From Sphingobium sp. EM0848 (GTDB lineage: Bacteria; Pseudomonadota; Alphaproteobacteria; Sphingomonadales; Sphingomonadaceae): a stretch of 64,000 nucleotides of DNA. The notes beneath the pieces are model-generated. The model ran no database searches. It worked only from the letters and a program-made list of their open reading frames with translations, and was not told where the DNA came from. The translations under genes and the position numbers were made by a program. This document shows, piece after piece, positions 1-29,101 of the stretch; position 1 is the stretch's first letter, and each line of letters opens with the position of its first letter. The stretch covers positions 310,001 to 374,000 of the forward strand of contig NZ_JABXWB010000005.1 of assembly GCF_013375555.1 (NCBI RefSeq), given 5' to 3'.

Positions 1-765
1 ATGGCCCGCTACGATCGCGACATGCATCTGCGCCAATATCTCGTCATAGGAAAGGCGGTCCTCCCCCTCCGACGCATTGAGCAGGCCGGTGAGGAAATCC
101 TCTTTCGGATCGGTGCGGCGCTTTTCCAGTTCGATGGCGACCGCCTCGTTCATCTTTTCGAGCGCCAAATTGGCCTTCTCCAGCCGTTCGGCGGTCGGTA
201 CGGTCGCCCCCACCCCTTCCATCAGCCAGGTCGCCCAGTTGCGCAGCTCCGGCGTCAGTTCGGGCGGCATGCCGAGCAGCTGGAACAACACGTCGCCGGT
301 CATGGCGCGCGATATGCCCTCGTTGAACTCCAGCTCGCCCTCGGCAATCATCTTGTCGACCAGCGATTCCGCACGGGCGCGGGCAAAGGGGCGGAAGCCC
401 TCGACGATCTTGCGGTTCAGCGCCTTCATCAGCAACGAGCGCAGGCGGGCATGGCGCTCGCCCTCGGTGCTGGTGATCCAGAGGTCCGAATATTTGACGA
501 GCGTGGGAATGCGCGCGTCCCATTGCTCCGGCGGGATCAGGTGAAAGACCGGGAACATGCGCCCATCATTGGTGACCGGGATGCGCCGCTGGAAGGCATC
601 GACCACATCGGCATGGCGGGTGATGAACCAGCATCGCGACTGCTCGCTCCAGAAGACCGGCGTCTGGTCGCGAATATGGTCGAGATCGTCGATCATCGCC
701 TTGCCGCGCTCACGCGGGGCGTTGGTCAGGTCGACATCCACATAGTCCTGCACGTTCATCTTCAT
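1..765 (-). CDS. cytochrome P450, N-terminal part (cut by window edge)
   Basis: The 255 visible residues read as a bacterial class I cytochrome P450: an N-terminal beta region, a C-helix-like WITSTEGERHARLR segment (the H-x-x-x-R heme propionate contact), and, at the very edge, the start of the I-helix (AIVAGH, where the family has A-G-x-E/D-T). The ExxR and heme-cysteine motifs lie outside the window. ATG at 765 has a purine-rich stretch directly before it, while ATG at 759 sits at a better distance, so the start could be six bases further in. It is the third gene of a leftward operon after an acyl-CoA dehydrogenase and a fused CoA-transferase. A hydroxylation role on the pathway substrate is inferred. 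Confidence 0.9.
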   Translation of the reverse strand, partial: MKMNVQDYVDVDLTNAPRERGKAMIDDLDHIRDQTPVFWSEQSRCWFITRHADVVDAFQRRIPVTNDGRMFPVFHLIPPEQWDARIPTLVKYSDLWITSTEGERHARLRSLLMKALNRKIVEGFRPFARARAESLVDKMIAEGELEFNEGISRAMTGDVLFQLLGMPPELTPELRNWATWLMEGVGATVPTAERLEKANLALEKMNEAVAIELEKRRTDPKEDFLTGLLNASEGEDRLSYDEILAQMHVAIVAGH

Positions 766-786
766 CCCTTCCCTTTTCTTATCCTG

Positions 787-2943
787 TCACGCCACGGCCT
801 GCTCTGTGTAGAGGCTCTCGATCGACTCCTCCGCATAGCCAAGCGCGGCCAGCATTTCCCGCGTATGCGCCCCCGGCATCGGCGCGGGCAGGTCATTGCC
901 CAGAGCCGAACGCGATAGGGAGAAAGCGGTGCCGATCTCGTTGATCTGGCCGAAGGCGGCATGCTGTGTCGCGCGGATGGTGCCGCGAGCGATCAGGTCC
1001 GGGTCAGTTAATATCTGCTGTTCCTTGCCGTCGCGGCAGGCCTCCACCCAGACACCATGGGGTTCGAGCGCGACCTTGAGCTGAGCATGGTCCAGCCGGC
1101 CGACACGGGCGGCGATCAGCCCTTCCTCCAGCTCGGGCAGGTCGAGGGCGTTGCGCAGGCCGGCGACGGCCCGCTCCCCCCGTGCGACGATGGCGACCCA
1201 GCCGTCCGCCGCTTCATACAGGCATTCGAGCGGAGTATAACCGCTAAGGCTCGCGCTCAGCGCCGGGATGCCGGCAAAGCTGCCATCGGGGCGCTGGATC
1301 AGTTCGGACAGCGTATAGATGCCCGCATTGCACAGCGGCGATTCCAGCGAGACGCTGCGCCCGGTGCGCTCACGGTGGAGCAGCGCCGCCATCACCGCGA
1401 CCGCGCCGATCATGCCGCCCGCAATGTCGACCAGATTGGTGCGGTTCCAGCGCGGATCATTGCCCGCACCCGCCGCCTTCACCTCATGACCGGTCCAGGC
1501 CTGCATCACCATGTCGAACCCGGCCTTGGCGGCGGCGGGACCTTCATTGCCGAAGGCAGGCGCCTCCAGCGCGATCAGCGCGGGATTGACCTGGCTGAGG
1601 CTCTGCGGATCGACACCCAGCCGCCTTGCGACGCCAGGGCGGAAATTGTTCATCACCACATCCGCGCCCGCGCACAGTTGCCGCACCACCTTCAGCCCAT
1701 CGGCATGTTTCAGGTCGACGCCGATCACCCGCTTGGCATGGTTTGCAACGGCGAAGGATTTGAAGATCGAGCGGTTGGGATCGCCCTGCTTGGCCTCGAC
1801 CTTGACCACGTCAGCGCCCAGATCAGCCAGCGCCACGCCCGCGAGCGGCCCTGCGACAAAGGCGCCGCAATCGACGACCCTCAGCCCTTCGAGCGGCTTG
1901 CGGCCCTTTTGCGCGCGCTTGGCCGCGCCCTCGCCCAGCGGCACGGCGGCGAAGGGCAGGCCGACATGACGGGTGCCGTCCGCTTCCGCTACGATGATGC
2001 GGTTATGGATGACCTGCGGGTCGGACCAGCAGGCGCCGGGCAACTGCACCTCCTCGGCGGGCAGGCCGCGTTCCCAGATGCGGGCGAGCAGATCGTCGCA
2101 ATCCTTCTTCGCCACATGAGCGGCCAGCAGATCGTAATCGCCGAAGAAATCCTTCCGGCTGCCGCCCGGTTTGGGCATGCCGCTGTCGCCGGGCAGGACG
2201 GTGGGATCATCAATCTCCAGCGCCTGATAGAAGCCATATTTTGACCCCGCCCCGCCGATCGCCATATGGATGAAGCGATCGTCGCGGGTGCGGAAGATGA
2301 GCGGCGCGACGCCGCGCGGGATGACGAAATCGGCCATGGGGGTCGGCTTTTCCAGTTTCGCCCAATAGGTGCCGATCCAGGGCAGCGCCCCTTCGAAGAG
2401 CGATGTGGTGACGAGCTGCCCCTGCCCCGATGCCTCCCGCTCGAACAGCGCGCCGAGGAGGCCGACCAACCCGTACAGGGCCGCGCCATAGGTGCCGGGC
2501 TCGAAGGCGTTGATGATCGGCCGGTCCGGTTCCTGTTCCCACACCAGCCCGCTGCGCACCTGCGCCAGCAATTCGGTCGATGGGCCGACATAGGCTGTGT
2601 CCGCAGGGCCGTCCGTCATGTCAAGGACGACCAGATGCGGATGCCGCGCCACCAGGTCGGCGGCATCGCGACGGCGGGGCAGGTCGGGATGATCCTCCCC
2701 GCCGATCAGGCAGGCATCGGCCTGCGCCAACAACCCTTCCAGCGCGTCCGGCGCGGCGCGGGCGGCCTTGCCGTGCCAGACCGCATAGGCGGGATAGATG
2801 GCCGCAAAAGGGTCTCCGCCCTGCGGCTCGATCCGGGTGACGCTCGCGCCGAGTTCGGCGAGCATCTTCGCCGTCAGCGCGGGGGCCATACCCACGCCCA
2901 GATCGACGATCTTGAGGCCTTCCAGCAAACCGGCTGCGCTCAT
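787..2943 (-). CDS. fused tandem family III CoA-transferase (CaiB/BaiF type)
   Basis: The 718 residues contain two CaiB/BaiF halves in tandem: the first from about 1 to 345, the second from about 352, where the N-terminal family pattern (LEGLRVVDCG) recurs. Single-domain family members are about 400 residues and work as interlocked dimers, so this is a covalent pseudo-dimer. In the second half an Asp near residue 504 (VDIAGG) aligns with the catalytic Asp of formyl-CoA transferase; the first half shows Thr at that place. The likely role is moving CoA from a thioester onto a pathway acid. The start at 2943 has a GGGGAGGAAG ribosome site. It lies between an acyl-CoA dehydrogenase (18 bases upstream) and the P450. 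Confidence 0.9.
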   Translation of the reverse strand: MSAAGLLEGLKIVDLGVGMAPALTAKMLAELGASVTRIEPQGGDPFAAIYPAYAVWHGKAARAAPDALEGLLAQADACLIGGEDHPDLPRRRDAADLVARHPHLVVLDMTDGPADTAYVGPSTELLAQVRSGLVWEQEPDRPIINAFEPGTYGAALYGLVGLLGALFEREASGQGQLVTTSLFEGALPWIGTYWAKLEKPTPMADFVIPRGVAPLIFRTRDDRFIHMAIGGAGSKYGFYQALEIDDPTVLPGDSGMPKPGGSRKDFFGDYDLLAAHVAKKDCDDLLARIWERGLPAEEVQLPGACWSDPQVIHNRIIVAEADGTRHVGLPFAAVPLGEGAAKRAQKGRKPLEGLRVVDCGAFVAGPLAGVALADLGADVVKVEAKQGDPNRSIFKSFAVANHAKRVIGVDLKHADGLKVVRQLCAGADVVMNNFRPGVARRLGVDPQSLSQVNPALIALEAPAFGNEGPAAAKAGFDMVMQAWTGHEVKAAGAGNDPRWNRTNLVDIAGGMIGAVAVMAALLHRERTGRSVSLESPLCNAGIYTLSELIQRPDGSFAGIPALSASLSGYTPLECLYEAADGWVAIVARGERAVAGLRNALDLPELEEGLIAARVGRLDHAQLKVALEPHGVWVEACRDGKEQQILTDPDLIARGTIRATQHAAFGQINEIGTAFSLSRSALGNDLPAPMPGAHTREMLAALGYAEESIESLYTEQAVA

Positions 2944-2961
2944 CAGACTTCCTCCCCTCGA

Positions 2962-4140
2962 TCAGCGCGTGTAGCGGCGGCCCAGAACATCCTTCATCAA
3001 TTCGGTCGCGCCGGCGAAGATGCGCTGCACGCGCGCGGCGGTGAACATGCGGCTGATCGGATGATCGTCCATCCACGCCTGTCCGCCCCAGAGCTGCACA
3101 CAATTGTCGAGCGTGCGGAATTCCAGTTCCGTCAACCAGATCTTCGCCATCGAGCTTTCGGCATCGGTGATGCTGTTGTTCACGACCTTGCGCAGCAGAG
3201 AATTATAGAAGGCGCGGCCGACGCGGATTTCCGTCTCCATCTGGGCAAGGACGAACTGGGTGTTCTGGAAGTCGATCAGCCGCTGACCGAACAGCTTGCG
3301 ATTCTGGCAATGTTCCAGCGTCATTTCGAACGCCCGCTGCGCCGCGCCGATGGAGCGGGCGACGATCTGCAACCGGTCGAGCGCCATATTGGGTACGAAC
3401 ATCGCCGCCGCACCATTTTCCGGGCCGACCAGATTGCTCACAGGCACGCGCACATCGTCGAAGAACAATTCGCCCGTGTCGCCGCCCTTGTAACCCTGCG
3501 TGATCATGCGGTGCTGGGTGAAGCCGGGCGTGCCCTTTTCCACGATGATCATGCTCATGCCCTTGGCCTTCAACTCCGGGGCGGTCTTGCACAGGACATA
3601 GACGATATCGGCCTTGGCGCCGTTGGAAATGTAGATCTTGCTGCCGTTGATGACCCATTCGTCGCCATCGCGAACCGCCGTGGTGCGCGCGGCAAAAGCG
3701 TCCGAGCCCGATTCCGCCTCCGTCATGCCCATGGCCTGCACGCAGTCGCCGGTCATGATGCGGGGAAAATAGGTCTGCTTCTGCTCCTCCGTACCATAGT
3801 CGACCAGGAAATTGGTGCAGATGTCCGTGCCGATAAAGGAGCCGGCCGTCGCACCCGCCGGGGAATAGCCCAGTTCTTCCGCCGCGACCATGATCGAGAA
3901 GCGATTCGCGCCGGGGCCGCCATAGGCTTCGGGGATGGTGGCGCCCAGGATCCCATATTCGCCCGCCTTGTTCCAGATCGCGCGGTCGGTCCCGGATTCT
4001 TCGAATTCGCGATAGCGCGGCTCCACCTCCCGCTCGAAATAGGCGCGCACGGTGGCGCGGAACATCTCCATTTCTTCGCCATAGGGGCTGTCTTCGGTCT
4101 CGAAATTCCGGGGGTCCAGCTTCAGGAAAACGCCGCTCAT
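2962..4140 (-). CDS. acyl-CoA dehydrogenase
   Basis: A full-length FAD-dependent acyl-CoA dehydrogenase of 392 residues, with the N-terminal helical domain, the central MTEAESGSD beta-domain signature and the C-terminal NRKLFGQ and QLWGGQAW segments. ATG at 4140 is preferred over 4146 because GGAGG stands six bases before it. The acid at the helix-G catalytic position (the LER of isovaleryl-CoA dehydrogenase) is Asp (LDR), and the other classical site (YEG) reads FAG, so this subunit has no Glu at either usual place. It is the first gene of the leftward operon with CoA-transferase and P450 and diverges from another acyl-CoA dehydrogenase gene. Electrons would go to ETF. Confidence 0.93.
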   Translation of the reverse strand: MSGVFLKLDPRNFETEDSPYGEEMEMFRATVRAYFEREVEPRYREFEESGTDRAIWNKAGEYGILGATIPEAYGGPGANRFSIMVAAEELGYSPAGATAGSFIGTDICTNFLVDYGTEEQKQTYFPRIMTGDCVQAMGMTEAESGSDAFAARTTAVRDGDEWVINGSKIYISNGAKADIVYVLCKTAPELKAKGMSMIIVEKGTPGFTQHRMITQGYKGGDTGELFFDDVRVPVSNLVGPENGAAAMFVPNMALDRLQIVARSIGAAQRAFEMTLEHCQNRKLFGQRLIDFQNTQFVLAQMETEIRVGRAFYNSLLRKVVNNSITDAESSMAKIWLTELEFRTLDNCVQLWGGQAWMDDHPISRMFTAARVQRIFAGATELMKDVLGRRYTR

Positions 4141-4256
4141 CCTCATCCTCCATTGCCGATACGCAGGTATCGGTCATGTTTTGCCGGTCGATGGACGCAC
4201 GAACTGGTCCGGCTGATTCCCTCGACGCGGTTTCACTATTGTGATGTAGCAGATGA

Positions 4257-4268
4257 TACGCTAGCGCA
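4257..4268. promoter_or_regulatory. putative operator, TACGCTAGCGCA
   Basis: The 12-base motif fits TAYGCWWGCRNA and has the 8-base palindrome CGCTAGCG at its core. It lies between two divergent acyl-CoA dehydrogenase genes, 29 bases before the rightward start. Related sites occur in other promoter gaps of this window. Confidence 0.5.
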
Positions 4269-4296
4269 ATATGAAAATCACTTGGGAGAGCGAGCC

Positions 4297-5511
4297 ATGG
4301 CGAATGAAGATCTGGTCCGGCAGGTAGAAGCCTTCATGCTGGAGCGGGTGATCCCGACAGAGCATGAGCATCATCAGCAGCTGCAGGCGGCGGAAAATCG
4401 CTGGACCTATACGCCGATCATGCGCCAGCTGCGGGCGGAAGCGAAGGAAAAGGGGCTGTGGCTGTTCCCCATGCCGGTCGAGCTGGGCGGGCGCGGCCTG
4501 TCGCTGATGGATTATGCGCCGATCTGCGAGATCATGAACTGGTGCAATCACGGGCCGGAAATCTTCAACTGCTATACCGGCACCATTTCCAACAGCACCG
4601 CCATGAACAACCATGCGTCGGCGGAACTCAAGGAGCGCTATCTGAAGCCTCTGGTGGCGGGGGATATCCGGTCCTGCATCTCCATCACCGAGCGCAACGT
4701 GCCTTCGTCCGACCCCACCGACCTCAAATTCGAGATCAGGCGCGAGGGTGACGACTATGTGTTGAACGGGGTCAAGAGCTGGGCGACCGGCGGGGCGATG
4801 GACGAATGCCGCTTCTTCCTGGTGTTGGGCGCGACCGATGTGAACGCACCGCGCCATGCGCGCCATTCGATGGTGCTGGTGCCGCGCGAGGCGGCGGGCC
4901 TCAGCCTCGGCCGGATCGAGACGGTGATGGGCTATGATGACGCACCCTTTGGCCATTGCGACCTGATCTTCGACAATGTCCGCATTCCCGCCAGCAACCT
5001 GATCGGCAAGGAAGGCGAAGGCTTTCTGATGATGCAAGCGACGCTGGGCGTCGGGCGCATCCAGCTCGGCATGGGCGCGATCGGCGCGGCGGAACGGGCG
5101 ATGATGGAAATGTGCAGCTGGGTGGAAAAGCGCATCATCGGCGGCCGTCCGCTGGTCGAGCGGCAGGTCGTGACCGATGCCATTGCCCGCAGCCGCATCG
5201 AGATCGACGCCTGCCGCGCCTTCATCGTGCAGACTGCGCGGCGGATGCAGGAGCAGGGCATGAAGGCGGTGCGCGGCGAGATCGCGCAATTGAAGGTGAT
5301 GGCGCCCGATGTGGCGCTGAAGGTGCTGGACCGGGCGATGCAGTTCCATGGCGGCGCGGGTCTCAGCTATGACACGCCGCTGCCGGAAATGTGGGCGCAT
5401 ATGCGCACCGTGCGGATCGGCGAAGGCGCCGACGAGGTGCATCGCGAAACCATCGCCAAGGTGGAACTGAAGCGGCAGGCCGAATGGCGTGCTGCCCGTG
5501 GCTGGAAGTGA
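4297..5511 (+). CDS. acyl-CoA dehydrogenase
   Basis: The 404-residue product has the acyl-CoA dehydrogenase fold: an N-terminal helical part, a beta domain with ITERNVPSSDP, and a C-terminal domain with MQFHGGAG near residue 350. The Glu at the classical MCAD-type catalytic position is visible as IGEGADEVH, while the alternative helix-G position is Gly. The start ATG at 4297 has GGGAGAG seven bases before it; an open frame continues far upstream but without a ribosome site. The N-terminal sequence is of the larger ACAD10/11-like type. It diverges from the neighbouring acyl-CoA dehydrogenase and is followed by the DUF35/thiolase pair. Confidence 0.92.
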   Translation: MANEDLVRQVEAFMLERVIPTEHEHHQQLQAAENRWTYTPIMRQLRAEAKEKGLWLFPMPVELGGRGLSLMDYAPICEIMNWCNHGPEIFNCYTGTISNSTAMNNHASAELKERYLKPLVAGDIRSCISITERNVPSSDPTDLKFEIRREGDDYVLNGVKSWATGGAMDECRFFLVLGATDVNAPRHARHSMVLVPREAAGLSLGRIETVMGYDDAPFGHCDLIFDNVRIPASNLIGKEGEGFLMMQATLGVGRIQLGMGAIGAAERAMMEMCSWVEKRIIGGRPLVERQVVTDAIARSRIEIDACRAFIVQTARRMQEQGMKAVRGEIAQLKVMAPDVALKVLDRAMQFHGGAGLSYDTPLPEMWAHMRTVRIGEGADEVHRETIAKVELKRQAEWRAARGWK

Positions 5512-5559
5512 TTCCTGTTGACGGGCACGCATTTGCCCATATAGTTCGTATGTGTATCA

Positions 5560-5571
5560 TAAACATGCAAA
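5560..5571. promoter_or_regulatory. putative operator, TAAACATGCAAA
   Basis: A variant of the shared palindromic motif (core CATGC, two positions off the strict consensus), 15 bases before the DUF35 start in the 75-base gap after the acyl-CoA dehydrogenase gene. Confidence 0.3.
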
Positions 5572-5586
5572 TCGAGAGTCGAGCCT

Positions 5587-6024
5587 ATGAGCCTCAGCAC
5601 TGATGCGCCGCGTCCGGCCTTTCCCTTCATCACCATCGATGCGGCGGGCCAGCCCAGCCTGATCGCCCAGAAATGCACTGCCTGCGGCGCGACCTATGCC
5701 GATAGCGAGCGGGTCGCCTGCGGACGCTGCGGCGGGCGGGCCGATGTGCTGGAGAGCTTCATTCCCGCCTCAGAGGGCGTGCTGCATTCGGCGGTGATCG
5801 TGCGGCGCGGCTTTCCGGGGGTGGAGGTGCCCTTCATCTCCGCCGTGGTCGATCTGGACGGCGGGCCAACGGTGAAGGGTACGCTGCGTCACACCGCCGG
5901 GTTCGAACCGGAACATGCCGCCCCCGGCCAGCGCGTGCGGGTGTGTTTCGACGATGCGCTGGGCCGCAAGGACAAGGACGGCAACAGCTATATCGCCCAT
6001 TATTTCGAACCGGTCTCGGCCTGA
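5587..6024 (+). CDS. DUF35 OB-fold / zinc-ribbon acyl-CoA-associated protein
   Basis: A 145-residue protein with an N-terminal rubredoxin-like zinc ribbon (CTACG near residue 28 and CGRCG near residue 44) followed by an OB-fold with the family ending (RVRVCFDDALGRKDKDG). Proteins of this family bind acyl-CoA and partner with SCP2-type thiolases or aldolases; the gene for such a thiolase starts 14 bases downstream. The partner inference is strong because the two genes are nearly contiguous and share a GAGGAG ribosome site overlapping the end of this gene. Confidence 0.88.
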   Translation: MSLSTDAPRPAFPFITIDAAGQPSLIAQKCTACGATYADSERVACGRCGGRADVLESFIPASEGVLHSAVIVRRGFPGVEVPFISAVVDLDGGPTVKGTLRHTAGFEPEHAAPGQRVRVCFDDALGRKDKDGNSYIAHYFEPVSA

Positions 6025-6037
6025 GGAGTGCCCTTTC

Positions 6038-7174
6038 ATGAGTGACATTTACATTGTGGGCATCCACATGATCGATTTCGGTCGCTACCCCCATCGCACG
6101 CCCGCGCAACTGGGCGCGCAGGCGGCGCTGGAGGCGCTGGACGAGGCCGGCATCACCATCAAGGACGTGCAGGCGGTCTTTTCGGGCAGCAATTACACAA
6201 CGATGATCGGTCAGCGCGTGTTGCAGCAGATCGGCCAGACCGGCGTGCAGATCGTCAATCTGGTCAATGCCTGCTCGACCGGCGCTTCGGCGGTGCGCAT
6301 GGCCTATACGGCGATCAAGGCGGGCGAGTTCGACACAGTGCTTTGCTTCGGCGTCGAGCAGATGACGGGGCTGGGCATGCTGGGCGGGGCGGCGCCGGGC
6401 GCGATCCCGACCGAGGGGATTTTGGGATCGGCCACCATGCCCGCGGTATTCGGGGAATCGGGCGTCGAATATATGGCGCGCACTGGCGCAGCCCAGGCGG
6501 ACTTCGCGCAGGTGGCGGTCAAGAACCATCACAATGCGACGATGAATCCCAAGGCCTTCCTGCGCAAGGAAACGCCGCTCGACATGGTGCTGGAGGCGGA
6601 GACGATCGCTTGGCCGCTGACCAAGCTGATGTGCTCGGTCAATGTCGACGGCGCGGCGGCGGCAGTGGTCATGTCGGAGGAGCAGGTGAAACGGCGCGGG
6701 CTGATGGATCGCGCGATCCGCATCCGTGGCTCGGCCATGGCTTCGGCGCCGTGGCAGGAGCGCGATCCGATCATGCACGATGTCAACGGGCCGACCCGAC
6801 TGGCGGCGCAGAAAGCCTATGCGATGGCAGGGGTCGATCCCAAGGATCTCGATCTGGTCGAGCTGCATGACTGCTTCGCCTCGGTCGAGTTGCAGCATTA
6901 TGAGAATCTGGGGCTGTGCGGCGAGGGCGAAGGCGTGCGGATGATCCGTGACGGGTCGACCGAGCTGGCCGGTTCGATCCCGGTCAATGCGTCGGGCGGG
7001 CTGCTGTCAAAGGGGCATCCGATCGCGGCAACGGGCATCGCGAACATGTATGAGATCGCCCTCCACCTGCGCGGTCAGGCGGGCGAGCGTCAGGTCAAGG
7101 GCGCGAAGATCGGCATGACCCATGTGGTTGGCCTCGGCACCAGCGCGGCGGTGCATATTTTCGAGAAAGCGTAA
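6038..7174 (+). CDS. SCP2-type thiolase (lipid-transfer-protein-like)
   Basis: The 378-residue product carries all three thiolase motifs: the nucleophilic Cys near residue 79 (NACSTG), HDCF near residue 277 and GHP near residue 327. The last two are typical of the SCP-x/lipid-transfer-protein branch. The nearby DUF35 gene recalls the Ltp2/DUF35 retro-aldolases of steroid side-chain breakdown, but those are reported to work without the Cys, so ordinary thiolysis or condensation is more likely here. ATG at 6038 follows a GAGGAG site. It ends 7 bases before a REP-like repeat. Confidence 0.9.
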   Translation: MSDIYIVGIHMIDFGRYPHRTPAQLGAQAALEALDEAGITIKDVQAVFSGSNYTTMIGQRVLQQIGQTGVQIVNLVNACSTGASAVRMAYTAIKAGEFDTVLCFGVEQMTGLGMLGGAAPGAIPTEGILGSATMPAVFGESGVEYMARTGAAQADFAQVAVKNHHNATMNPKAFLRKETPLDMVLEAETIAWPLTKLMCSVNVDGAAAAVVMSEEQVKRRGLMDRAIRIRGSAMASAPWQERDPIMHDVNGPTRLAAQKAYAMAGVDPKDLDLVELHDCFASVELQHYENLGLCGEGEGVRMIRDGSTELAGSIPVNASGGLLSKGHPIAATGIANMYEIALHLRGQAGERQVKGAKIGMTHVVGLGTSAAVHIFEKA

Positions 7175-7180
7175 AGCGTA

Positions 7181-7260
7181 ACGTCATCCCCGCGAAGGCG
7201 GGGATCCATCTCCCATAAACGCTCAGGAAATGGGTTCCCGCCCGCGCGGGAACGACGATT
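7181..7260. repeat. REP-like intergenic double hairpin
   Basis: Two stem-loops stand between convergent genes: an ATCCCCGC/GCGGGGAT stem at 7186-7205 and a GTTCCCGC/GCGGGAAC stem at 7234-7253. This is the form of the dispersed 'cgtcatccccgcgaaggcgggg' repeats common in sphingomonad genomes. It may also act as a terminator for both genes. Confidence 0.75.
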
Positions 7261-7266
7261 CCCTAT

Positions 7267-8034: not shown

Positions 8035-8095
8035 CACCGGCTCCCCTATCAGATTGAAACCACCTCGGTTCGCTTCGAGCGGAGGTTTGGCCATT

Positions 8096-8938: not shown

Positions 8939-8959
8939 GATGGCGCCTCCTCAATTCAT

Positions 8960-9025
8960 TGTGTTCCTGCGCGGCAGGAATCCAGTTCAGACGGCAGGAC
9001 TGGACTCCTGCTTTCGCAGGAGTAG
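8960..9025. repeat. paired short hairpins (REP-like)
   Basis: Two stems lie in the gap before the SDR gene: TTCCTGC/GCAGGAA at 8964-8980 and ACTCCTGC/GCAGGAGT at 9004-9023, joined by a spacer. The arrangement resembles sphingomonad dispersed repeats; it could also end the rightward transcripts or affect the SDR promoter. Confidence 0.6.
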
Positions 9026-9038
9026 GTCGTGCGACAGG

Positions 9039-9145
9039 CTAGAGCATGTTCCGATCAGATTGAATCGCACCATGCTCTCATTATCTTTTGTTTTCCGCAT
9101 TTTCCGAGTCGTCAGATGATCCCATCTGACTAAAAAATGCTCTAG
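9039..9145. repeat. MITE-like intergenic repeat with CTAGAGCAT ends
   Basis: A 107-base element with 9-base inverted ends (CTAGAGCAT at 9039, ATGCTCTAG ending at 9145) and an internal GTCAGATG/CATCTGAC hairpin. The right end supplies the TAG stop codon of the large oxidoreductase gene. Its form matches a class of short dispersed elements seen in sphingomonad genomes. Confidence 0.6.
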
Positions 9146-17179: not shown

Positions 17180-17225
17180 GTCTCTCTCCTTATCTGGTCG
17201 AATCCGACCATTCACCCGCACATGA

Positions 17226-19110: not shown

Positions 19111-19155
19111 TGGCCTCTCCATGCGTTTCACAAAAAATAGGACACATCATAATTG

Positions 19156-19167: not shown

Positions 19168-19235
19168 CTATATGCATCACGGCTTATTTGAGCATGACGG
19201 GCCTGTCAACGGGCAGCCGCGCCGGAGGAAGAGAG

Positions 19236-20477: not shown

Positions 20478-20505
20478 CCCGCTTTTCCGACATGGAGACA
20501 GACCT

Positions 20506-21665: not shown

Positions 21666-22832
21666 ATGGAAATCGAACTGAATGAAGTCCAGCAATCGGT
21701 CCGCGACGGCGTTGGTCGCATCGTCGATCAATTTGGCGACGAATATTGGTCGAAACTCGACCAGAGTGGCGATTTTCCTCATGAATTCCATGCCGCGCTG
21801 GCCAAGGCGGGCTATCTGGGCATCACCATGCCGGAGGAATTGGGCGGATCGGGCCTGGGCGTTACCGAAGCGGCGATCATGATGAACCGGATCTGTCAGG
21901 GCTCTGGTGGTTATTCAGCGGCGTCAACCATCCATTTGAACCTTTTCGGACCGCATGCCGTCGTCGTCTTCGGTACGCCGGAACAGAAGGAGCGGATGTT
22001 GAAGCCCCTGATCGCCGGGACCGATAAGGCCTGTTTCGGCGTGACCGAACCCGATGCGGGTCTGGATACGACCAGCATCAAGACGTTCGCGACCAAGGTG
22101 CCGGGTGGATACCGCATCACCGGGCGAAAAATCTGGACATCATCGGGTCAGGTCGCGAACAAGATCGTGATCCTCGCGCGCACCACGCCCAAGGATCAGT
22201 GCAAACGGCCGACCGATGGCATGAGCTTCTTCTACACCGATCTCGATCACAGCAAGATCGAGGTCCGGCGCATCCCGAAAATGGGCCGCAATGCCGTCGA
22301 TTCCAATGCGACCTTCATCGACGATTATTTCGTGCCGGATGAAGATTTGATCGGAGAAGAAGGCAAGGGCTTTCATTACGTTCTGCACTCGCTCAACCCG
22401 GAGCGTATCCTTGTCGCGTCGGAGGCGGTGGGCAATGGGCAGGGCGCGCTGAAGCGGATCGCCCAATATGCGCAGGACCGCCATGTTTTCGGGCGGCCAA
22501 TCGGCATGAATCAGGGCATCCAGCATCCACTTGCGGAAAGCTGGATGGCGCTGGAATCCGCCTTCTGGATGGTGATGCGCGCAGGCTGGCTCTACGATAA
22601 CGGCAAAAGCTGCGGGGCGGAGGCGAACAGCGCCAAATTCCTGGCTGCCCGCGCCGGGTTCGACGCCTGCACCCGCGCCGTGATGTTCCATGGCGGCATG
22701 GGCTATTCCAAGGAATATCAGGTCGAACGGCTGTTCCGCGAAAGCATCTTGCTGCGCATCGCGCCTGTTACCGAACAGATGATCATGAGCTTCATCGGCG
22801 AGAAAGTTCTCGGCCTGCCGAAAAGCTATTGA
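21666..22832 (+). CDS. acyl-CoA dehydrogenase
   Basis: A 388-residue acyl-CoA dehydrogenase: VTEPDAGLDT in the beta domain, DRHVFGRPIG and MFHGGMGYSKEY in the C-terminal domain. Glu is present at the helix-G catalytic position (NPER). The C-terminal end (LLRIAPVTEQMIM) departs from the common GTSEI pattern. It starts 11 bases after its neighbour and lies 10 bases before the MaoC gene. Confidence 0.92.
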   Translation: MEIELNEVQQSVRDGVGRIVDQFGDEYWSKLDQSGDFPHEFHAALAKAGYLGITMPEELGGSGLGVTEAAIMMNRICQGSGGYSAASTIHLNLFGPHAVVVFGTPEQKERMLKPLIAGTDKACFGVTEPDAGLDTTSIKTFATKVPGGYRITGRKIWTSSGQVANKIVILARTTPKDQCKRPTDGMSFFYTDLDHSKIEVRRIPKMGRNAVDSNATFIDDYFVPDEDLIGEEGKGFHYVLHSLNPERILVASEAVGNGQGALKRIAQYAQDRHVFGRPIGMNQGIQHPLAESWMALESAFWMVMRAGWLYDNGKSCGAEANSAKFLAARAGFDACTRAVMFHGGMGYSKEYQVERLFRESILLRIAPVTEQMIMSFIGEKVLGLPKSY

Positions 22833-22842: not shown

Positions 22843-23709
22843 ATGGATCTTCAGAAAGTCGTCACCCGGGTCTTTCCCGATACCGAGCAGGCCTATAGCG
22901 CCAAGGACACGATCCTCTACGCGCTGGGCGTAGGTTTCGGATCGGAACCGCTTGATCCCAAACATATTGATTATCTGTTCGAGGAGCGGCTGAAGGCATC
23001 GCCCACCTATGCCAATGTGCTGGGTCATCCGGGCATGTGGATGCGCGATCCACGCTATGGCATTGACTGGAAGAAGCTGCTCCACGCCGAACAGCGGCTG
23101 GAAATGCATGGCACTTTGGCGCCCGAGGGCCGGATCATCGGCAAACATTTCATCATGGGCGTGCGCGATCTGGGCGAGCGCGGGGCGATGGTGCATCAGC
23201 GCAAATATGTGATCGACGCGAACAGCGGGGAGAAGATCGCAACGGTCACCAACACGCTGATGATGCGCGGCGACGGCGGTTGCGGCGATTGGGGCGAGGT
23301 ACCGGCGGAATTGGAAAAGCTGCCCGAAACAGCGCCCCACAGCGCGCTGGAGGTGCAGGCGACCGAAATCCAGCCGCTCATCTATCGCCTCTCGGGCGAT
23401 CTCAACCCGCTGCATATCGATCCTGAAGTCGCGAAGATCGGCGGCTTCCCCCGTCCGATCCTGCATGGCCTGTCGACCAAAGGCATGGCGGGCTATGCTC
23501 TGCTGCGCCACTTCTGCGATTTCGTGCCCGAGCGGCTGGGATCGATGGCGGTGCGCTTCAGCCGTCCGGTGCTGCCGGGCGATCGCATCCGCTTTGAATT
23601 TTGGGGCGGATTGTCCAGTGGGGGGGCGGGCACGGTCCGCTTCCGGGCGGTGGTGCCCAATCGTGACAATCTGATGGTGCTCGATCGCTGTACCGCTGAG
23701 ATCGGATGA
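22843..23709 (+). CDS. MaoC-type (R)-enoyl-CoA hydratase
   Basis: A 288-residue double hot-dog protein. The C-terminal half has the hydratase-2 motif near residues 180-210, with the Asp and His of SGDLNPLHIDP and then GGFPRPILHGL. It would add water to a trans-2-enoyl-CoA made by the preceding acyl-CoA dehydrogenases. Eukaryotic and actinobacterial relatives act on steroid side chains. Its stop overlaps the MFS start (ATGA), so the two are coupled. Confidence 0.92.
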   Translation: MDLQKVVTRVFPDTEQAYSAKDTILYALGVGFGSEPLDPKHIDYLFEERLKASPTYANVLGHPGMWMRDPRYGIDWKKLLHAEQRLEMHGTLAPEGRIIGKHFIMGVRDLGERGAMVHQRKYVIDANSGEKIATVTNTLMMRGDGGCGDWGEVPAELEKLPETAPHSALEVQATEIQPLIYRLSGDLNPLHIDPEVAKIGGFPRPILHGLSTKGMAGYALLRHFCDFVPERLGSMAVRFSRPVLPGDRIRFEFWGGLSSGGAGTVRFRAVVPNRDNLMVLDRCTAEIG

Positions 23710-24974
23710 CGGGCAACGTGACGCGGGCCGCGCCGTGGATCGCCCTGGCCCTGCTCGCGGCGATGAACCTGATGAACTATTATGACCGCCTGCTGGTGGT
23801 CGTGCTGTCGCAACCGCTGCGGGTGGAATTCAGCCTCAGCGATACCCAATATGCGCTACTGACGGGACCGGCCTTCGTGCTGGTCTATGCGGTTGCCAGC
23901 CTCCTTTTCGGGCGGTTGGCCGACAGCCATGGCCGGCGGTGGCTGATCGCCTTCGTCATCGCGCTGTGGAGCGGGATGACGGCGCTCTGCGGTTTCGCGA
24001 AAAGCTTTGCCCTGCTCGCCATGGCACGCGCGGGCGTGGGCATTGGCGAGGGCGGCGCCAATCCGGCGGGCATGTCACTGCTGAGCGATCATTTCCCGCC
24101 GCAGCGCCGGTCGCTGGCCCTCGCACTGTTCCAGGTCGGCGGCAATATTGGCATGTTGGCCAGCTTCATGGCGGCGAGCTGGATCGCGGCCCATCATGGC
24201 TGGCGTGCGGCCTTCTGGGTGGGGGCGGTGCCAGGGCTGGTGCTGGCAGTGCTGATCTTCTGCTTCATGCCCGACGCGCAACGCGGTCAATATGATGGTG
24301 AGACGCAGGCGCCCATCCCCTTCGCCCGGACCATGGCGCAGCTCTGGCATAACAAAGCCTATGTCTGGCTGTGCTGGGCCGCGTCTTTCGGCGTGTTCAG
24401 CAGTCTGGGCATGCTGATCTGGCTTCCGCAATATTTCATCCGCCTGCATGGCATGGATCAGGCACAGGTCGGCTTTCTCTTCGGACCCGCCGCCAGCTTC
24501 GGGCTGATCATCGGCATGGTGATCGGCGGCTGGCTGGGCAACCGGCTGGCGGTGCGGCATCTGGCGGCGCCGGTGTGGCTCTGCATTGCCGCCAATCTGT
24601 TGCTGGTGCCCGTATTGCTGACCATGTTGTGGAGCCGGTCGACCAGCCTGGCCCTGCTGGCCTGCTTCATCGGCATGGGGCTGGCGGTAGTCTATGCCCC
24701 CGCCTTTCAGGCGACGATGCAGAGCGTCTGCGCGCCGCGCCAGCGCGGCATGGCGGGGGCCTGCTCCAATGTGCTGAATGCGCTGATCGGACAGGGACTG
24801 ATCCCGCTGTTCGTCGGCATGGTGAGCGACGGGTTGATGCCCGCTCTCGGCGCGCAAAGCCTGCGTTGGGCGCTGACGGCCGCGACGGGCTTCACATTGG
24901 TATCGGGGCTGCTGTTCATCCTTGCATATCGCCATGCGCGGCGGTTGTTCGATGAGCGCAGCTCCCCTCCCTGA
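23706..24974 (+). CDS. MFS transporter
   Basis: A 422-residue membrane protein with about twelve hydrophobic segments and the MFS motif A region (GRLADSHGRRW) after the second segment. The N-terminus (MNYYDRLLVVVLSQPL...LSDTQYALLTGPAF) is that of the Spinster-like group frequent in sphingomonads. Last gene of the operon starting at 19236. It likely moves a pathway substrate or product across the inner membrane. Its stop codon lies in the loop of a hairpin. Confidence 0.9.
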   Translation: MTGNVTRAAPWIALALLAAMNLMNYYDRLLVVVLSQPLRVEFSLSDTQYALLTGPAFVLVYAVASLLFGRLADSHGRRWLIAFVIALWSGMTALCGFAKSFALLAMARAGVGIGEGGANPAGMSLLSDHFPPQRRSLALALFQVGGNIGMLASFMAASWIAAHHGWRAAFWVGAVPGLVLAVLIFCFMPDAQRGQYDGETQAPIPFARTMAQLWHNKAYVWLCWAASFGVFSSLGMLIWLPQYFIRLHGMDQAQVGFLFGPAASFGLIIGMVIGGWLGNRLAVRHLAAPVWLCIAANLLLVPVLLTMLWSRSTSLALLACFIGMGLAVVYAPAFQATMQSVCAPRQRGMAGACSNVLNALIGQGLIPLFVGMVSDGLMPALGAQSLRWALTAATGFTLVSGLLFILAYRHARRLFDERSSPP

Positions 24975-25016: not shown

Positions 25017-25640
25017 TCACGCCGCCATCAGTGCGCTGTCGTCAATCGCCTGTACCCGCTGCCATGCCGGCCGCGCCGTACAGCGCGCCAGCCAGTCGCT
25101 GATCACCGGGAAGGCGCTCATATCAATGCGCGGGGCGATGCCTGCGATCGGGAAAGCCGTGTTGATGTCGCCCAGCGTAAAGCTGTCCCCGGCAACATAG
25201 GCATTGCCCGCCGCCAGATGCTTTTCCAGCGCGCCCAGCGTATCGGCCACCTCCTTGAGGCAGGCCCCGACAAGGCCGCCATCAGGCGCTTCGCCCGCCT
25301 GCCCGGCGCGGCGGATTTCGCGCACCATCACGGTGAAATGAAACTCCACCTCGGTAATCGCCCAGCTGGTCCACTGGTCCATCCGCGCCCGCGCCCGTGC
25401 ATCGGTCGGCAGCAGAGCATTCGACGTCAGCGTCGCCAGATAGGCGGTGATCGCGACCGACTCGGTCAGGACGAAATCGCCATCGACCAGCACCGGCACC
25501 TTGCCCATCGGGTTGAGCGCGAGGAAGCTGTCCGCCTTGCTGTCGGGCACCGCGACCTGGGTATAGGGCAGCCCCAATTCCTCCAGCGCCCAGAGGCAAC
25601 GGGCAACGCGGCTCGGCTTGGTTCCATAAATTGTCAGCAT
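25017..25640 (-). CDS. glutathione S-transferase family protein
   Basis: A 207-residue GST: thioredoxin-fold N-terminal half with KPSRVARCLWALEEL and the glutathione-binding LNPMGKVPVL and ESVAI segments (the cis-Pro and Ser that hold glutathione), followed by an all-helical C-terminal half. GGGAGAGAG precedes the start. It may detoxify reactive intermediates or act as a glutathione-dependent isomerase or lyase in the pathway; the sequence does not decide. It diverges from the acyl-CoA dehydrogenase at 25727. Confidence 0.9.
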   Translation of the reverse strand: MLTIYGTKPSRVARCLWALEELGLPYTQVAVPDSKADSFLALNPMGKVPVLVDGDFVLTESVAITAYLATLTSNALLPTDARARARMDQWTSWAITEVEFHFTVMVREIRRAGQAGEAPDGGLVGACLKEVADTLGALEKHLAAGNAYVAGDSFTLGDINTAFPIAGIAPRIDMSAFPVISDWLARCTARPAWQRVQAIDDSALMAA

Positions 25641-25726: not shown

Positions 25727-26908
25727 ATGACCGGCAACAACTATGATGATTGGCGCCGTCGTTCGCCCTTTTACGGCGAAACCCACGAAGCCCTGTCCAG
25801 CAGCGTTCGCGCCTTCATCGCGCGGGAGGCGACGCCTCATGTCGAGGCCTGGGAAGAGGCCGGCATCGTGCCCCGCGCCTTTCACGAGAAAGCGGGTGCA
25901 GCAGGCTTGCTGGGCCTCGGCTTTCCCGAGCAACTGGGCGGCACGGCAGAGGGGATCGACAGTTTCCACAAGCTGGTGCTGGTCGATGAAACCGCGCGCT
26001 GCGGGTCGGGCGGCGTGCAGTCCGGCCTCTTCACCCATGCCGTCGCCATGCCGCTGCTGATCGAGCATGGCGATCCGGACCTCGCCGCATCGGTTGCGCC
26101 GCGCATCCTGGCCGGGCTGGATATCCTCGCCATCGCTATTACCGAGCCTTCGGGCGGGTCGGATGTCGCCGCGCTCAAGACCGGCGTACGGCGGGAGGGC
26201 GATACCTTCATCGTCAACGGATCAAAGACCTTCATCTCCAACGGCATGCGCGCCGACTGGTTCGTGACCGCCGTGCGCACCGGTGGCCCCGGCATGGGGG
26301 GTATCTCCATGCTGCTGATCCCCGGCGATAGCCCCGGCCTGACTCGCACGTCGCTCAAGAAGATGGGCTGGCATGCGGGCGATACGGCGACGCTGCATTT
26401 CGACGATGTGCGTGTACCCGTGCACCATCTGCTGGGGCAGGAGAATAAGGGCTTCAAGCCGATCCTGCGCAATTTCAATTGGGAGCGGATACAGGCGGCC
26501 CAGCAGTGCACCGCCTTCGCCCGCATCGCGCATGAGGAGGCGGTGGACTGGGCAAACCAGCGCGAAACCTTCGGGCAGAAACTGGGATCGCATCCGGTGA
26601 TCCGGTCAAAACTGGCCGACATGAAGCGGCGGATCGACACGACGCAGGCTTCGGTCGACCTCAACACATGGCAGTTTGACCAAGGACTCGATTCCGCGTC
26701 CGACATTGCCCTGCTGAAAGTGCAGGCGACCCGCATGTTCGAACAGGTACTGCGCGAAGCGGCGCAGGTGCTGGGCGGTGCCAGCTTCATCCGGGGCACC
26801 CTCACCGAACGCATTTACCGCGAAGTCCGCGTCGTCGCCATCGGCGGCGGGTCGGAGGAAATCTTGCTTGATCTGGCCGGGCGGCAGCTTGGCTATGGTG
26901 CATCATAA
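25727..26908 (+). CDS. acyl-CoA dehydrogenase
   Basis: A 393-residue acyl-CoA dehydrogenase: ITEPSGGSDV in the beta domain, RETFGQKLG, and AQVLGGASF in place of the usual QxxGGxGY. The helix-G position has Glu (WER), while the YEG position reads IGG. The start has GGAGAGG nine bases before. First gene of a four-gene rightward operon; the next gene is a second acyl-CoA dehydrogenase lacking this Glu, as expected for a catalytic plus non-catalytic heteromer. Confidence 0.92.
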   Translation: MTGNNYDDWRRRSPFYGETHEALSSSVRAFIAREATPHVEAWEEAGIVPRAFHEKAGAAGLLGLGFPEQLGGTAEGIDSFHKLVLVDETARCGSGGVQSGLFTHAVAMPLLIEHGDPDLAASVAPRILAGLDILAIAITEPSGGSDVAALKTGVRREGDTFIVNGSKTFISNGMRADWFVTAVRTGGPGMGGISMLLIPGDSPGLTRTSLKKMGWHAGDTATLHFDDVRVPVHHLLGQENKGFKPILRNFNWERIQAAQQCTAFARIAHEEAVDWANQRETFGQKLGSHPVIRSKLADMKRRIDTTQASVDLNTWQFDQGLDSASDIALLKVQATRMFEQVLREAAQVLGGASFIRGTLTERIYREVRVVAIGGGSEEILLDLAGRQLGYGAS

Positions 26909-26919
26909 AGGGAGTGGAC

Positions 26920-28071
26920 ATGGCTTATCAGACGACGGAATCCCTCTGGACCCCGGAACATCAGATCTTCCGGGAAACGGTGCGCCACTTCATCGCGACG
27001 GAAGTGGAGCCGAATGTCGACCAGTGGGTGGAGAATCATGCCATTCCCCGCAGCTTCTGGCTGAAGGCGGCGCAAGCTGGCATTTTGGGCGTGGACATTC
27101 CCGAAGCCTATGGCGGTCCGGGCGGCGACTTCCTGCACCGGCTCGTGATCGCGGAGGAGATCGGCTACAGCCCGGCGGGCGCGGCGATGGCACCATCGCT
27201 GATCGCGGACGGCACCTGTGAAATCCTCTATCGCTCCGCCAATGAGGAGCAGCGGCGGAAATATCTGCCGCCGATGGTGCGCGGCGAGATGCTGTTCGGC
27301 CTCGCCATTACCGAGCCGGACAGCGGCAGCGACGTGTCCTCCATCCGCACCACCGCGCGGCGCGATGGCGACGACTATGTCATCACCGGCGCCAAGACCT
27401 ATATTTCGCAATCCTCGATCGCCGACGCCTTCATGGTCGTCGCCCGCACCGGGGACGAGCCGGGTTCCAAGGGGCTGTCGATGATCATTGTCGAGGCCGA
27501 CCGGCCCGGCTTCAAGCGCGGGCGGGCACTCAAGAAGATGGGCGTCAATGCCTCCAACACGGGCGAAATCAGCTTTGACGAGGTCCGCGTGCCCGTCACC
27601 AACCTGCTGGGCGAGGAAGGGCGCGGCATGGCGTTGTGCCTGGGCGGGGTGAATATGGACCGGATCACCTGGCCGCTCATCGCGCATGCCGCCTCGCAGC
27701 GTGCGCTCGAGGAGACCACCGAGTTCGTGAAGAACCGCAAGGCTTTCGGCCAGACCATCTTCGATTTCCAGAACACGCAGTTCAAGCTGGCCGAAATGAA
27801 GACCGAACTGGCAGTGGGCCGCGCCTTTCTGGACGAGGTAATCCGAGACTATCAGGCGCATGGCAAGCTCGACACGCTGAAATGCGCGATGGCGAAGATG
27901 TGGCTGCCGGAAATGGAAGCGCGTATCATGGATACATGCGTGCAATTGCATGGTGGTGCAGGCTATATGGACGAATATCCGATATCACGGCTCTATACTG
28001 CTGCCCGGCTGCATCGTATCTTTGCCGGAACGGCCGAGATCATGCGTGTGATCGTCGCACGGTCACTCTGA
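26920..28071 (+). CDS. acyl-CoA dehydrogenase
   Basis: A 383-residue acyl-CoA dehydrogenase with ITEPDSGSDV, NRKAFGQ and QLHGGAGYMDEY. ATG at 26920 is chosen over an in-frame GTG at 26914, which lies inside the AAGGGAG ribosome site. The helix-G site has Asp (MDR) and the YEG site reads FAG, so no Glu is at either usual catalytic place. Its stop overlaps the EthD start (TGATG), indicating coupled translation. Confidence 0.92.
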   Translation: MAYQTTESLWTPEHQIFRETVRHFIATEVEPNVDQWVENHAIPRSFWLKAAQAGILGVDIPEAYGGPGGDFLHRLVIAEEIGYSPAGAAMAPSLIADGTCEILYRSANEEQRRKYLPPMVRGEMLFGLAITEPDSGSDVSSIRTTARRDGDDYVITGAKTYISQSSIADAFMVVARTGDEPGSKGLSMIIVEADRPGFKRGRALKKMGVNASNTGEISFDEVRVPVTNLLGEEGRGMALCLGGVNMDRITWPLIAHAASQRALEETTEFVKNRKAFGQTIFDFQNTQFKLAEMKTELAVGRAFLDEVIRDYQAHGKLDTLKCAMAKMWLPEMEARIMDTCVQLHGGAGYMDEYPISRLYTAARLHRIFAGTAEIMRVIVARSL

Positions 28072-28436
28072 TGTTCAAGGTCATGCTGTTAGCGAAGAAA
28101 CGCCCCGACATCAGTTTCGAGGCGTTTCGCGACTATTATTCCAACCATCATGTGCATCTGATGAACCGGCTGCTGGCGCATGGCGCGGCGGTGCATCGGC
28201 GCAATTTCGTGCAGCATCCCGATCCGGCGCATCCCGGCGACTATGATGTGATTTCGGAGGTCTTTTACGAGGATCGGGCAACGGCGGAGGCGACCATGCG
28301 CGAAATGGCCGATCCAGAGGTCCATCGGCAGCGGATCGAGGATGAGAGAAAATTCCTGATACCGGAATCGGTGCGGGTCTTCATGGTCGAAACCGACACC
28401 AGCCTGTTCCGCCCGTTGAAGGAGCTGACGCCGTGA
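28071..28436 (+). CDS. EthD-domain dimeric alpha-beta barrel protein
   Basis: A 121-residue ferredoxin-like-fold protein with an N-terminal strand (FKVMLLAKKRPDISFEAFRDYY) and a His-rich SNHHVHLM segment, as in EthD and related small catabolic proteins. Members of this group include cyclases, decarboxylases and heme-degrading types, so the reaction is not set by family. It overlaps both neighbours (TGATG at its start, GTGA at its end). Confidence 0.82.
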   Translation: MFKVMLLAKKRPDISFEAFRDYYSNHHVHLMNRLLAHGAAVHRRNFVQHPDPAHPGDYDVISEVFYEDRATAEATMREMADPEVHRQRIEDERKFLIPESVRVFMVETDTSLFRPLKELTP

Positions 28437-29101
28437 ATGTTTCGGAAGCAGTGACGAGCCGGCGGTCGATCCGCCAGTTCCTGCTCGATCCCGTCGATCG
28501 GGCCGTGTTGGAGCGGGTTCTGGAAAAGGCGCAGCGCGCCCCGTCCGGCGGCAATCTGCAACCCTGGAACGTCCATGTGGTGAGCGGCACGGCGCTCAAC
28601 CGGCTATGCGGTGCGCTGGCAAAGGTGCTGCCGCAGGGGCGCGCGGGGCATAGCGGCGAATATGCCATCTACCCGGCCGATCTGGCGGATCGCTACAGCG
28701 ACAGCCGCTATGAGGTAGGCGAGAGCATGTATGCCGCGCTGGGCGTGACGCGGGACGACAAGCAGGGGCGTCTTGCCCAGTTCGCCCGCAATTACCGGGC
28801 CTTCGGTGCGCCGGTACTGATGCTGGTGCACACACCGCGCTATATGGGGCCGCCGCAATGGGCCGATATCGGCATGTGGTTGCAGACGGTCATGCTGCTG
28901 CTACGCGAGGAAGGGCTGGACAGTTGCGCGCAGGAGGCATGGGCCGTCTATCAGAAGCAGATCCGCGAGCATGTCGCGATCCCGGGCGACCATATCTTCT
29001 TTTGCGGCATTTCGGTCGGCTATCGCGATCCCGACGCACCGGTGAACAGTTTTCCCGTCGCGCGTACTCCGCTGAAGCAAGTCGTCACATTCGTCGAGTG
29101 A
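28433..29101 (+). CDS. nitroreductase-family FMN oxidoreductase
   Basis: A 222-residue protein with the family's N-terminal SRRSIRQF, the FMN-binding RAPSGGNLQPW near residue 38, and the C-terminal GISVGYRDP. GTG at 28433 is the start, overlapping the EthD stop, with GGAG eight bases before. In catabolic operons such enzymes may reduce or dehydrogenate enones or quinones; nitro substrates need not be involved. Followed directly by a strong hairpin. Confidence 0.88.
   Translation: MNVSEAVTSRRSIRQFLLDPVDRAVLERVLEKAQRAPSGGNLQPWNVHVVSGTALNRLCGALAKVLPQGRAGHSGEYAIYPADLADRYSDSRYEVGESMYAALGVTRDDKQGRLAQFARNYRAFGAPVLMLVHTPRYMGPPQWADIGMWLQTVMLLLREEGLDSCAQEAWAVYQKQIREHVAIPGDHIFFCGISVGYRDPDAPVNSFPVARTPLKQVVTFVE

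Follow-up and report, generated by a model that had tools for sequence, protein, structure and literature searches.

A proposed ring-opening module in a catabolic island of Sphingobium sp. EM0848

The window analyzed here, a stretch of 64,000 nucleotides (G000:C5:310001-374000) within the 5.64 Mb genome of Sphingobium sp. EM0848, carries a catabolic island whose core is an eight-gene operon on the - strand, running from 19131 down to 9142. In transcriptional order, the operon encodes a short-chain dehydrogenase (SDR_c, 18208-19131), a quinone oxidoreductase (QOR)-type medium-chain reductase (17273-18193), the alpha (15851-17221) and beta (15345-15902) subunits of a Rieske dioxygenase, a two-domain type I extradiol dioxygenase (14416-15327), a further short-chain dehydrogenase (SDR_b, 13623-14411), an ACMSD-type amidohydrolase (12627-13622), and a fused 2-oxoacid (indolepyruvate-type):ferredoxin oxidoreductase (IOR, 9142-12630), with neighboring genes overlapping or separated by at most 51 bases. 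This gene set suggests a mosaic module that would open the ring of an aryl-carboxylate, perhaps isoprenoid, decarboxylate the product, and convert it directly to a CoA thioester that enters beta-oxidation, a reading that we regard as fairly probable. The catabolic genes were identified by Pfam and NCBIfam scans, which bore out the Rieske alpha and beta subunits, the complete type I extradiol dioxygenase, the fused oxidoreductase, the MaoC hydratase, and the DUF35/thiolase pair named in a first-pass annotation of the same DNA. The Rieske enzyme, which that annotation had placed at the head of the operon, stands third, behind SDR_c and QOR.

The core set recurs in 10 other genomes that range from Sphingomonadales to Acidocella, Hirschia, and Massilia, its order mostly preserved and a gene sometimes missing; this recurrence is more than chance. 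An alignment of the extradiol enzyme over a named genome collection yielded 15 loci, eight of which carry all or nearly all of the core (Sphingobium sp. Leaf26, Sphingomonas formosensis, Novosphingobium lentum, a Hirschia metagenome-assembled genome (MAG), Sandaracinobacteroides sayramensis, Acidocella aquatica, an Acetobacteraceae MAG, and Sphingosinicella terrae). Massilia cavernae has part of the core on a 5-kb contig, and genome G036 adds one more core locus, giving 11 module loci with the window included. The IOR gene of G036 (L096 8605-12100) matches as three overlapping pieces, probably reflecting frameshifts or an assembly error. The remaining six of the 15 loci encode extradiol enzymes of 56-62% identity in other surroundings; P450 and Rieske genes occur in L022, L024, and L025, and not in L021, L023, and L026. 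The former three (Acidocella, an Acetobacteraceae MAG, and another MAG) combine a P450 and Rieske alpha/beta genes with an extradiol relative of 60-62% identity, and neither the decarboxylase nor the IOR was found within the stretches of 6.6-16.9 kb scored there. At E 1e-60, and counting the window's own genome each time, the extradiol enzyme was found in 11 of 397 genomes of the family, four of them at 82% identity or higher, in 7 of 385 genomes at class level, and in 2 of 398 at phylum level, the others at the two higher levels reaching at most 42%. The module is a sporadic, rare trait scattered over several orders, and it supplies marker genes for that trait.

The front end resembles p-cumate and o-phthalate ring opening

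Judged by sequence, the front end of the operon matches the ring opening of p-cumate and o-phthalate (cmt/opa) degradation, a likeness that the first-pass annotation had not mentioned; genes for Rieske alpha and beta subunits, a short-chain dehydrogenase, an extradiol dioxygenase, and a predicted decarboxylase stand together. The likeness was judged against cmt-like plasmid and genome loci rather than against the opa and cmt proteins themselves. The alpha subunit has its Rieske motif from residue 102 and an HxxxxH motif at 229, the beta subunit probably starts at 15833 or 15827, and SDR_b, a proposed cis-dihydrodiol dehydrogenase, is BenD-like while scoring under the cut-off of the BenD model. 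In the extradiol enzyme, H145, H205, and E256, which by alignment to HPCD would be the metal ligands, are invariant among the aligned extradiol sequences.

Among the cmt-like loci, the plasmid relatives L029, L030, and the unannotated L031 have extradiol enzymes 38-40% identical to that of the window and share the order Rieske alpha, Rieske beta, extradiol, and short-chain dehydrogenase. Their decarboxylase-type gene encodes an amidohydrolase in L029 and a class II aldolase in L030 and L031, and all three carry a C-C-hydrolase-type alpha/beta hydrolase together with lower-pathway genes. L028 and L110 are more distant (extradiol identity 28-29%) and differ in gene order, with a class II aldolase in L028 and an amidohydrolase plus two VOC genes in L110. 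The latter (1871-16738) is a cmt-like cluster on a conjugative plasmid of Pseudosulfitobacter pseudonitzschiae, with many similar records among the matches listed. In L030 (16195-21587), a Sphingopyxis macrogoltabida plasmid, a cmt-like cluster with its hydrolase has an IOR gene and another Rieske pair beside it, which may represent an intermediate arrangement.

The amidohydrolase of the core aligns to ACMSD structures over nearly its full length (E 1e-43). In an alignment of 18 of the 27 collected ACMSD-type rows, with repeats left out, the equivalents of HxH, His177, His228, Asp294, and Arg239 were kept in all 18 rows and that of Arg51 in 17, the exception being the paralogue L032. The window protein thus has the ligand residues and both arginines, which PMC11650718 links to the two substrate carboxylates. 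The available text of PMC6362003 describes, from assays of E. coli extracts, that OpaC makes 3-carboxy-2-hydroxymuconate semialdehyde, which is decarboxylated by OpaD, a member of the ACMSD family; in another strain, a class II aldolase decarboxylates the cleavage product of 2,3-dihydroxybenzoate. The protein called an ACMSD-like hydrolase in the first-pass annotation is indeed an ACMSD-like amidohydrolase, more likely a decarboxylase than a hydrolase.

The cmt pathway for p-cumate shares with the island the Rieske alpha and beta subunits, a dihydrodiol dehydrogenase, an extradiol dioxygenase, and a decarboxylase of the cleavage product. The opa cluster of Pseudomonas sp. PTH10, as far as it is described in the same part of PMC6362003, likewise shares the Rieske subunits, a dihydrodiol dehydrogenase, an extradiol enzyme for a 2,3-dihydroxy-aryl-carboxylate, and an ACMSD-family decarboxylase. 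Where these two have a hydrolase or dehydrogenase and the hydroxypentadienoate lower pathway, the island has an IOR and genes for beta-oxidation, and the window's operon has no ferredoxin gene of its own. A genome-wide scan with Ring_hydroxyl_A gave 13 matches, of which one lies in the window and two come from a single split frame, leaving about 11 further Rieske alpha-type genes outside the island.

An IOR stands where cmt-like loci have a C-C hydrolase

Gene content was scored over 41 loci with identity thresholds of our own choosing and with flanks that for most loci reached about 10 kb to either side (the whole Massilia stretch is 5 kb). Both the ACMSD-type gene and the IOR gene were present in all 11 module loci, and within the flanks scored none of the 11 had the hydrolase, an FAH gene, or the acetaldehyde dehydrogenase/aldolase genes; the C-C hydrolase and hydroxypentadienoate lower pathway of cmt/opa clusters were thus missing from those flanks. 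Twelve non-module loci carry Rieske alpha and extradiol genes together with a decarboxylase gene of either type (L028-L031, L104-L106, L110, L118, L121, L122, and L124; L028, L029, L030, and L110 are probe sources). The hydrolase was found in 11 of these, FAH in six, acetaldehyde dehydrogenase/aldolase in seven, and IOR in one (L030). This count omits L119 and L120, which are neighboring stretches of a single genome and each lack one of these genes, as well as the loci that have no Rieske alpha or no decarboxylase gene (L021-L026, L032, L102, L107-L109, and L123). The IOR of the window matched NF009589 with 1510 bits (cut-off 816).

The island is not an estrogen (edc) cluster

The order of ring cleavage followed by IOR-type oxidation had been likened in the first-pass annotation to the estrogen (edc) route, and the likeness holds. 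According to the sections of PMC7793797 consulted, the edc cluster of Novosphingobium (Caenibius) tardaugens shares with the island extradiol cleavage followed by IOR-type oxidative decarboxylation, as well as a P450, a thiolase and ChsH2-like protein, MaoC, acyl-CoA dehydrogenases, and a TonB receptor; metabolites support the action of EdcC after ring cleavage (section 11). Nevertheless, on sequence, tree, and gene content the edc assignment was rejected, and the island is, by these measures, not an estrogen cluster. The comparison was made with four loci called edc-like from their layout (compare section 6 of PMC7793797), EdcB itself not being among them. All four have IOR and extradiol genes and none has Rieske or ACMSD-type genes, in contrast to the island; the annotation had rightly regarded a Rieske enzyme as foreign to the estrogen scheme, as it is absent both from these loci and from the edc cluster as presented in those sections. 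The island also differs in having no VOC gene between the extradiol and IOR genes.

The extradiol enzyme of the window shares 25-26% identity with its counterparts in two edc-like loci and does not belong to the EdcB type; the other two gave no match to it at that threshold, their extradiol genes being found by other probes at 27-29%. In a tree of 34 of the 52 collected rows, with repeats unused and long branches flagged by the program, five IOR-adjacent extradiol enzymes, two of them from edc-like loci, were split from the other 29 with support of 100/100. The IOR shares a cluster with the ring-cleavage enzyme, as in edc, though it falls outside the edc-like clade. In a tree of 36 of 62 rows (repeats, some further IORs of the family, and the interrupted gene of G036 were unused), nine module sequences formed one clade (100/100) and the four edc-like sequences another (98/95), and the sister group of the module consisted of eight IORs from other surroundings rather than the edc-like ones. 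Hence the homology check against the edc cluster that had been proposed supported a likeness of layout and spoke against orthology, both the extradiol enzyme and the IOR lying in other clades. A literature search by title and beginning of abstract, mostly of open papers, found no characterized cluster with this gene set, which does not prove that none exists.

A phosphosteroid-lyase-like gene and putative kinases accompany the core

Divergent from the core, a second operon of lyase-like and acyl-CoA dehydrogenase genes begins with PSL1 (19236-20477, + strand), which was likewise absent from the first-pass annotation. PSL1 scored 226.5 bits against the NCBIfam model of the Rv3169/25-phosphosteroid-lyase family (cut-off 150), had no Pfam match, and agreed with that family in fold; confidence in the structure model was moderate (pLDDT 69.5), and structural matches ranked under the lyase, AttH, and hydratase/cyclase group were taken as background. 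A second gene of the lyase family, PSL2, and two kinase-like genes, APH1 and APH2, lie 7-11 kb to the left of the window. This kinase-lyase cassette was found near the core in 7 of the 11 module loci, including Acidocella, where it adjoins the core, and the stretches of the other four are short. Among 249 genomes, PSL2 occurred at 79% identity or higher only in the four module genomes. The corresponding known system is the 25-hydroxysteroid kinase and 25-phosphosteroid lyase of anaerobic sterol degradation, as described in the parts of PMC8449060 and PMC11061730 consulted (PDB 9fzn, 9g2i, and 9g4c). The island differs from it in having oxygenases, and its kinase-like genes are only putative counterparts of the 25-hydroxysteroid kinase.

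Proposed pathway and alternatives

The reactions, their order, and the substrate class, which we infer from this gene content, would be as follows. The Rieske oxygenase would dihydroxylate a carboxylate-bearing aromatic ring next to the carboxylate, and SDR_b may then re-aromatize the diol to a 2,3-dihydroxy-aryl-carboxylate, which the extradiol enzyme, acting like cmtC or opaC, would cut beside the second hydroxyl. After the putative removal of the former ring carboxylate by the ACMSD-type enzyme, the IOR, rather than a C-C hydrolase, is predicted to carry out an oxidative decarboxylation of the 2-oxo acid to R-CO-CH=CH-CH2-CO-SCoA. QOR, the proposed enone reductase, is placed after the IOR because the latter, acting on a decarboxylated 2-hydroxy-6-oxo-dienoate, would by chemical reasoning give an enone thioester. 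Its top PDB matches were an oxidoreductase and a protein of the alcohol dehydrogenase superfamily, followed by quinone oxidoreductases such as 1yb5 and 5a3j, with 4ida lower; the 5a3j and 4ida types are presumably enone reducers. Beta-oxidation would be completed by the acyl-CoA dehydrogenases, MaoC, SDR_c (a proposed 3-hydroxyacyl-CoA dehydrogenase; PRK07791, NF005861 380.9 bits, cut-off 373), and the DUF35/thiolase pair, with R left as an acyl-CoA. The kinase and phospho-alcohol lyase (PSL1; PSL2, APH1, and APH2) may act on the substrate or a side chain to eliminate a hydroxyl that is probably tertiary. Such an IOR exit would make most sense if, as is the case for estrogens, the ketone carbon lies in a second ring or in a long chain.

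A lead toward an isoprenoid substrate comes from the lyase family and from the large number of beta-oxidation genes. The candidate class is an isoprenoid-derived p-alkyl or fused-ring benzoate, with bisabolane acids and C-ring abietane derivatives as possible members. Abietanes with an oxidized isopropyl group and bisabolanes would both fit a tertiary alcohol and a para-substituted ring carboxylate. The substrate may, as the first-pass annotation proposed, be of a polycyclic, terpenoid, or steroid type. More tentatively, the island might encode a previously undescribed aerobic isoprenoid pathway, in which, as in anaerobic sterol degradation, a hydroxyl is phosphorylated at the expense of ATP and then eliminated as phosphate. 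An aryl-carboxylate would arise and pass through a cmt/opa-type opening to the IOR, which would yield the CoA thioester directly, the ring giving acetyl-CoA units and CO2 and the rest an activated acyl-CoA. If these proposals are true, the oxidative-decarboxylation exit of estrogen degradation is a module able to couple to a different ring-opening front end, and the kinase/phospho-lyase dehydration of anaerobic sterol degradation may also serve oxygenase-based catabolism. The island is also a concrete, testable setting for the Rv3169 family.

Several observations weigh against this reading. The nearest NCBIfam model to the Rieske alpha subunit was BenA (268 bits, cut-off 781), and the BenA reaction is a 1,2- rather than a 2,3-dioxygenation; a ferredoxin probe matched one of the 11 module loci (L017) and not the window's operon; SDR_b was near the core in nine of the 11 loci and was not found there in the Acidocella and Acetobacteraceae loci; and the window's amidohydrolase has no Trp at the position of Trp194 in ACMSD. 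Given the limited flanks and self-chosen thresholds of the survey, more distant or more diverged hydrolases may exist, and the window itself has an alpha/beta hydrolase gene (31875-32753), which was not counted among relatives of the cmt-type hydrolases. The chain shortening expected of seven acyl-CoA dehydrogenases fits many substrates. The APH1 and APH2 proteins match phosphotransferases generally, and a third Rv3169-family protein scored over the cut-off elsewhere in the genome (C1), so that the family extends beyond the island. Further, to the left of the window (G000:C5:304904-308566), an eighth acyl-CoA dehydrogenase gene of the island is interrupted by an IS21-type element (C5:305954-308304); the pieces of the gene match residues 1-85 (80%) and 75-383 (92%) of the intact G011 protein, and the pathway may thus be impaired in this strain.

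Among the alternatives, a p-cumate or p-cymene pathway, in which R would be isopropyl and leave as isobutyryl-CoA while the other genes belonged to unrelated neighboring pathways, is unlikely, although the front-end gene content is common to cmt/opa-like loci and the Acidocella core is accompanied by fewer of the genes that flank it in the window. Several sphingomonads conserve much of the large region around the core, the kinase-lyase cassette adjoins the core even in Acidocella, and nearly all of the surveyed cmt-like loci (11 of 12) keep the hydrolase. It is still less likely that the ACMSD-like protein is a zinc-dependent C-C hydrolase (LigY-like) or a hydratase acting on the cleavage product, with the IOR serving a different 2-oxo acid; weak matches to LigY (E 1e-5) and 4-oxalomesaconate hydratase (E 1e-3) point that way, but the nearly full-length matches to ACMSD are the best ones, both carboxylate-binding arginines are present, and OpaD, as described in the available text of PMC6362003, offers a precedent for decarboxylation. 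We give an equally low probability to a variant of the estrogen/steroid 4,5-seco pathway with the Rieske enzyme as the ring A hydroxylase. It would account for an IOR following extradiol cleavage, for the P450, DUF35/thiolase pair, MaoC, and TonB receptors as in the edc cluster, and for the phosphosteroid-lyase homologue, but the low extradiol identity in another clade, the separate IOR clade, and the want of Rieske and ACMSD-type genes in the edc-like loci speak against it, and a ring-carboxylate decarboxylase would have no role in the edc scheme.

Other genes of the island and its surroundings

Island-type genes kept with the core in relatives extend to the left of the window as far as about C5:291169, with the IS21-type element among them. 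The P450 gene named in the first-pass annotation is real and is cut by the window edge, its first 255 codons occupying 1-765 (- strand); the full gene (G000:C5:309518-310765) encodes 415 amino acids, has homologues 79-88% identical near the core in G011, G036, and G212, and gave generic matches to solved structures. It is followed by a fused family III CoA-transferase (787-2943, -; PF02515 348.7 bits in two stretches) and acyl-CoA dehydrogenase 1 (2962-4146, -). Acyl-CoA dehydrogenase 2 (4297-5511, +) is the C-terminal part of the open reading frame (ORF) 2266-5511, with a predicted start; on the opposite strand, ORF 4261-5532 was rejected as a gene, having no Pfam match and a weak codon score (18), while the + strand encodes the acyl-CoA dehydrogenase. 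Next come the DUF35/ChsH2-like OB-fold protein (5587-6024, +; PF01796 39.7 bits), the SCP2/BbsB-type thiolase (6038-7174, +; ORF from 5915, domain start near 6038), an enoyl-CoA hydratase/isomerase (7267-8094, -), and short-chain dehydrogenase a (8096-8938, -).

On the other side of the core, PSL1 is followed on the + strand by acyl-CoA dehydrogenase 3 (20422-21654; in 10 of the 11 module loci), acyl-CoA dehydrogenase 4 (21666-22832; ORF from 21513), a MaoC hydratase of the MFE-2 hydratase-2 type (22843-23709), and an MFS transporter (23706-24974). Beyond a glutathione S-transferase family gene (25017-25640, -) lie acyl-CoA dehydrogenases 5 (25727-26908, +) and 6 (26914-28071, +), an EthD-domain protein (28071-28436, +; predicted start), and a nitroreductase-family protein (28433-29101, +). 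TonB-dependent receptor 1 (29544-31796, -) and a second fused CoA-transferase (32817-34961, -) with acyl-CoA dehydrogenase 7 (34984-36135, -), together spanning 32817-36135, are tentatively assigned to the island by position only. Thus, the seven acyl-CoA dehydrogenases that the first-pass annotation had counted within 1-29101 were correct as to family, with six inside and the seventh farther right, and of its CoA-transferases one fusion gene, of family III, lies inside that stretch and the second beyond it. Farther on (42466-45442), a LuxC-type acyl-CoA reductase gene adjoins a 493-amino-acid ORF without a Pfam match.

The divergent promoter region between the two operons (19132-19235) contains an imperfect palindrome (19135-19154) and a conserved 22-mer (19151-19172). 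In an alignment of nine loci, inspection by eye showed a clean palindrome for L013 and L014 alone; the window and L017 have an imperfect one, and none is clear in L018, L019, and L027. The palindrome pattern and the 22-mer each matched only their own source site in a scan of the window, and thus no regulon was drawn; 16 of 100 shuffled sequences also matched the palindrome pattern. Toward the right of the window, two identical transposase genes (1371 of 1371 bases) lie in inverted orientation (49234-50604, -, and 58248-59618, +), enclosing a gene for a DUF5801 repeat protein of 1830 amino acids (50662-56154) and an IS66-type transposase gene (56521-58149).

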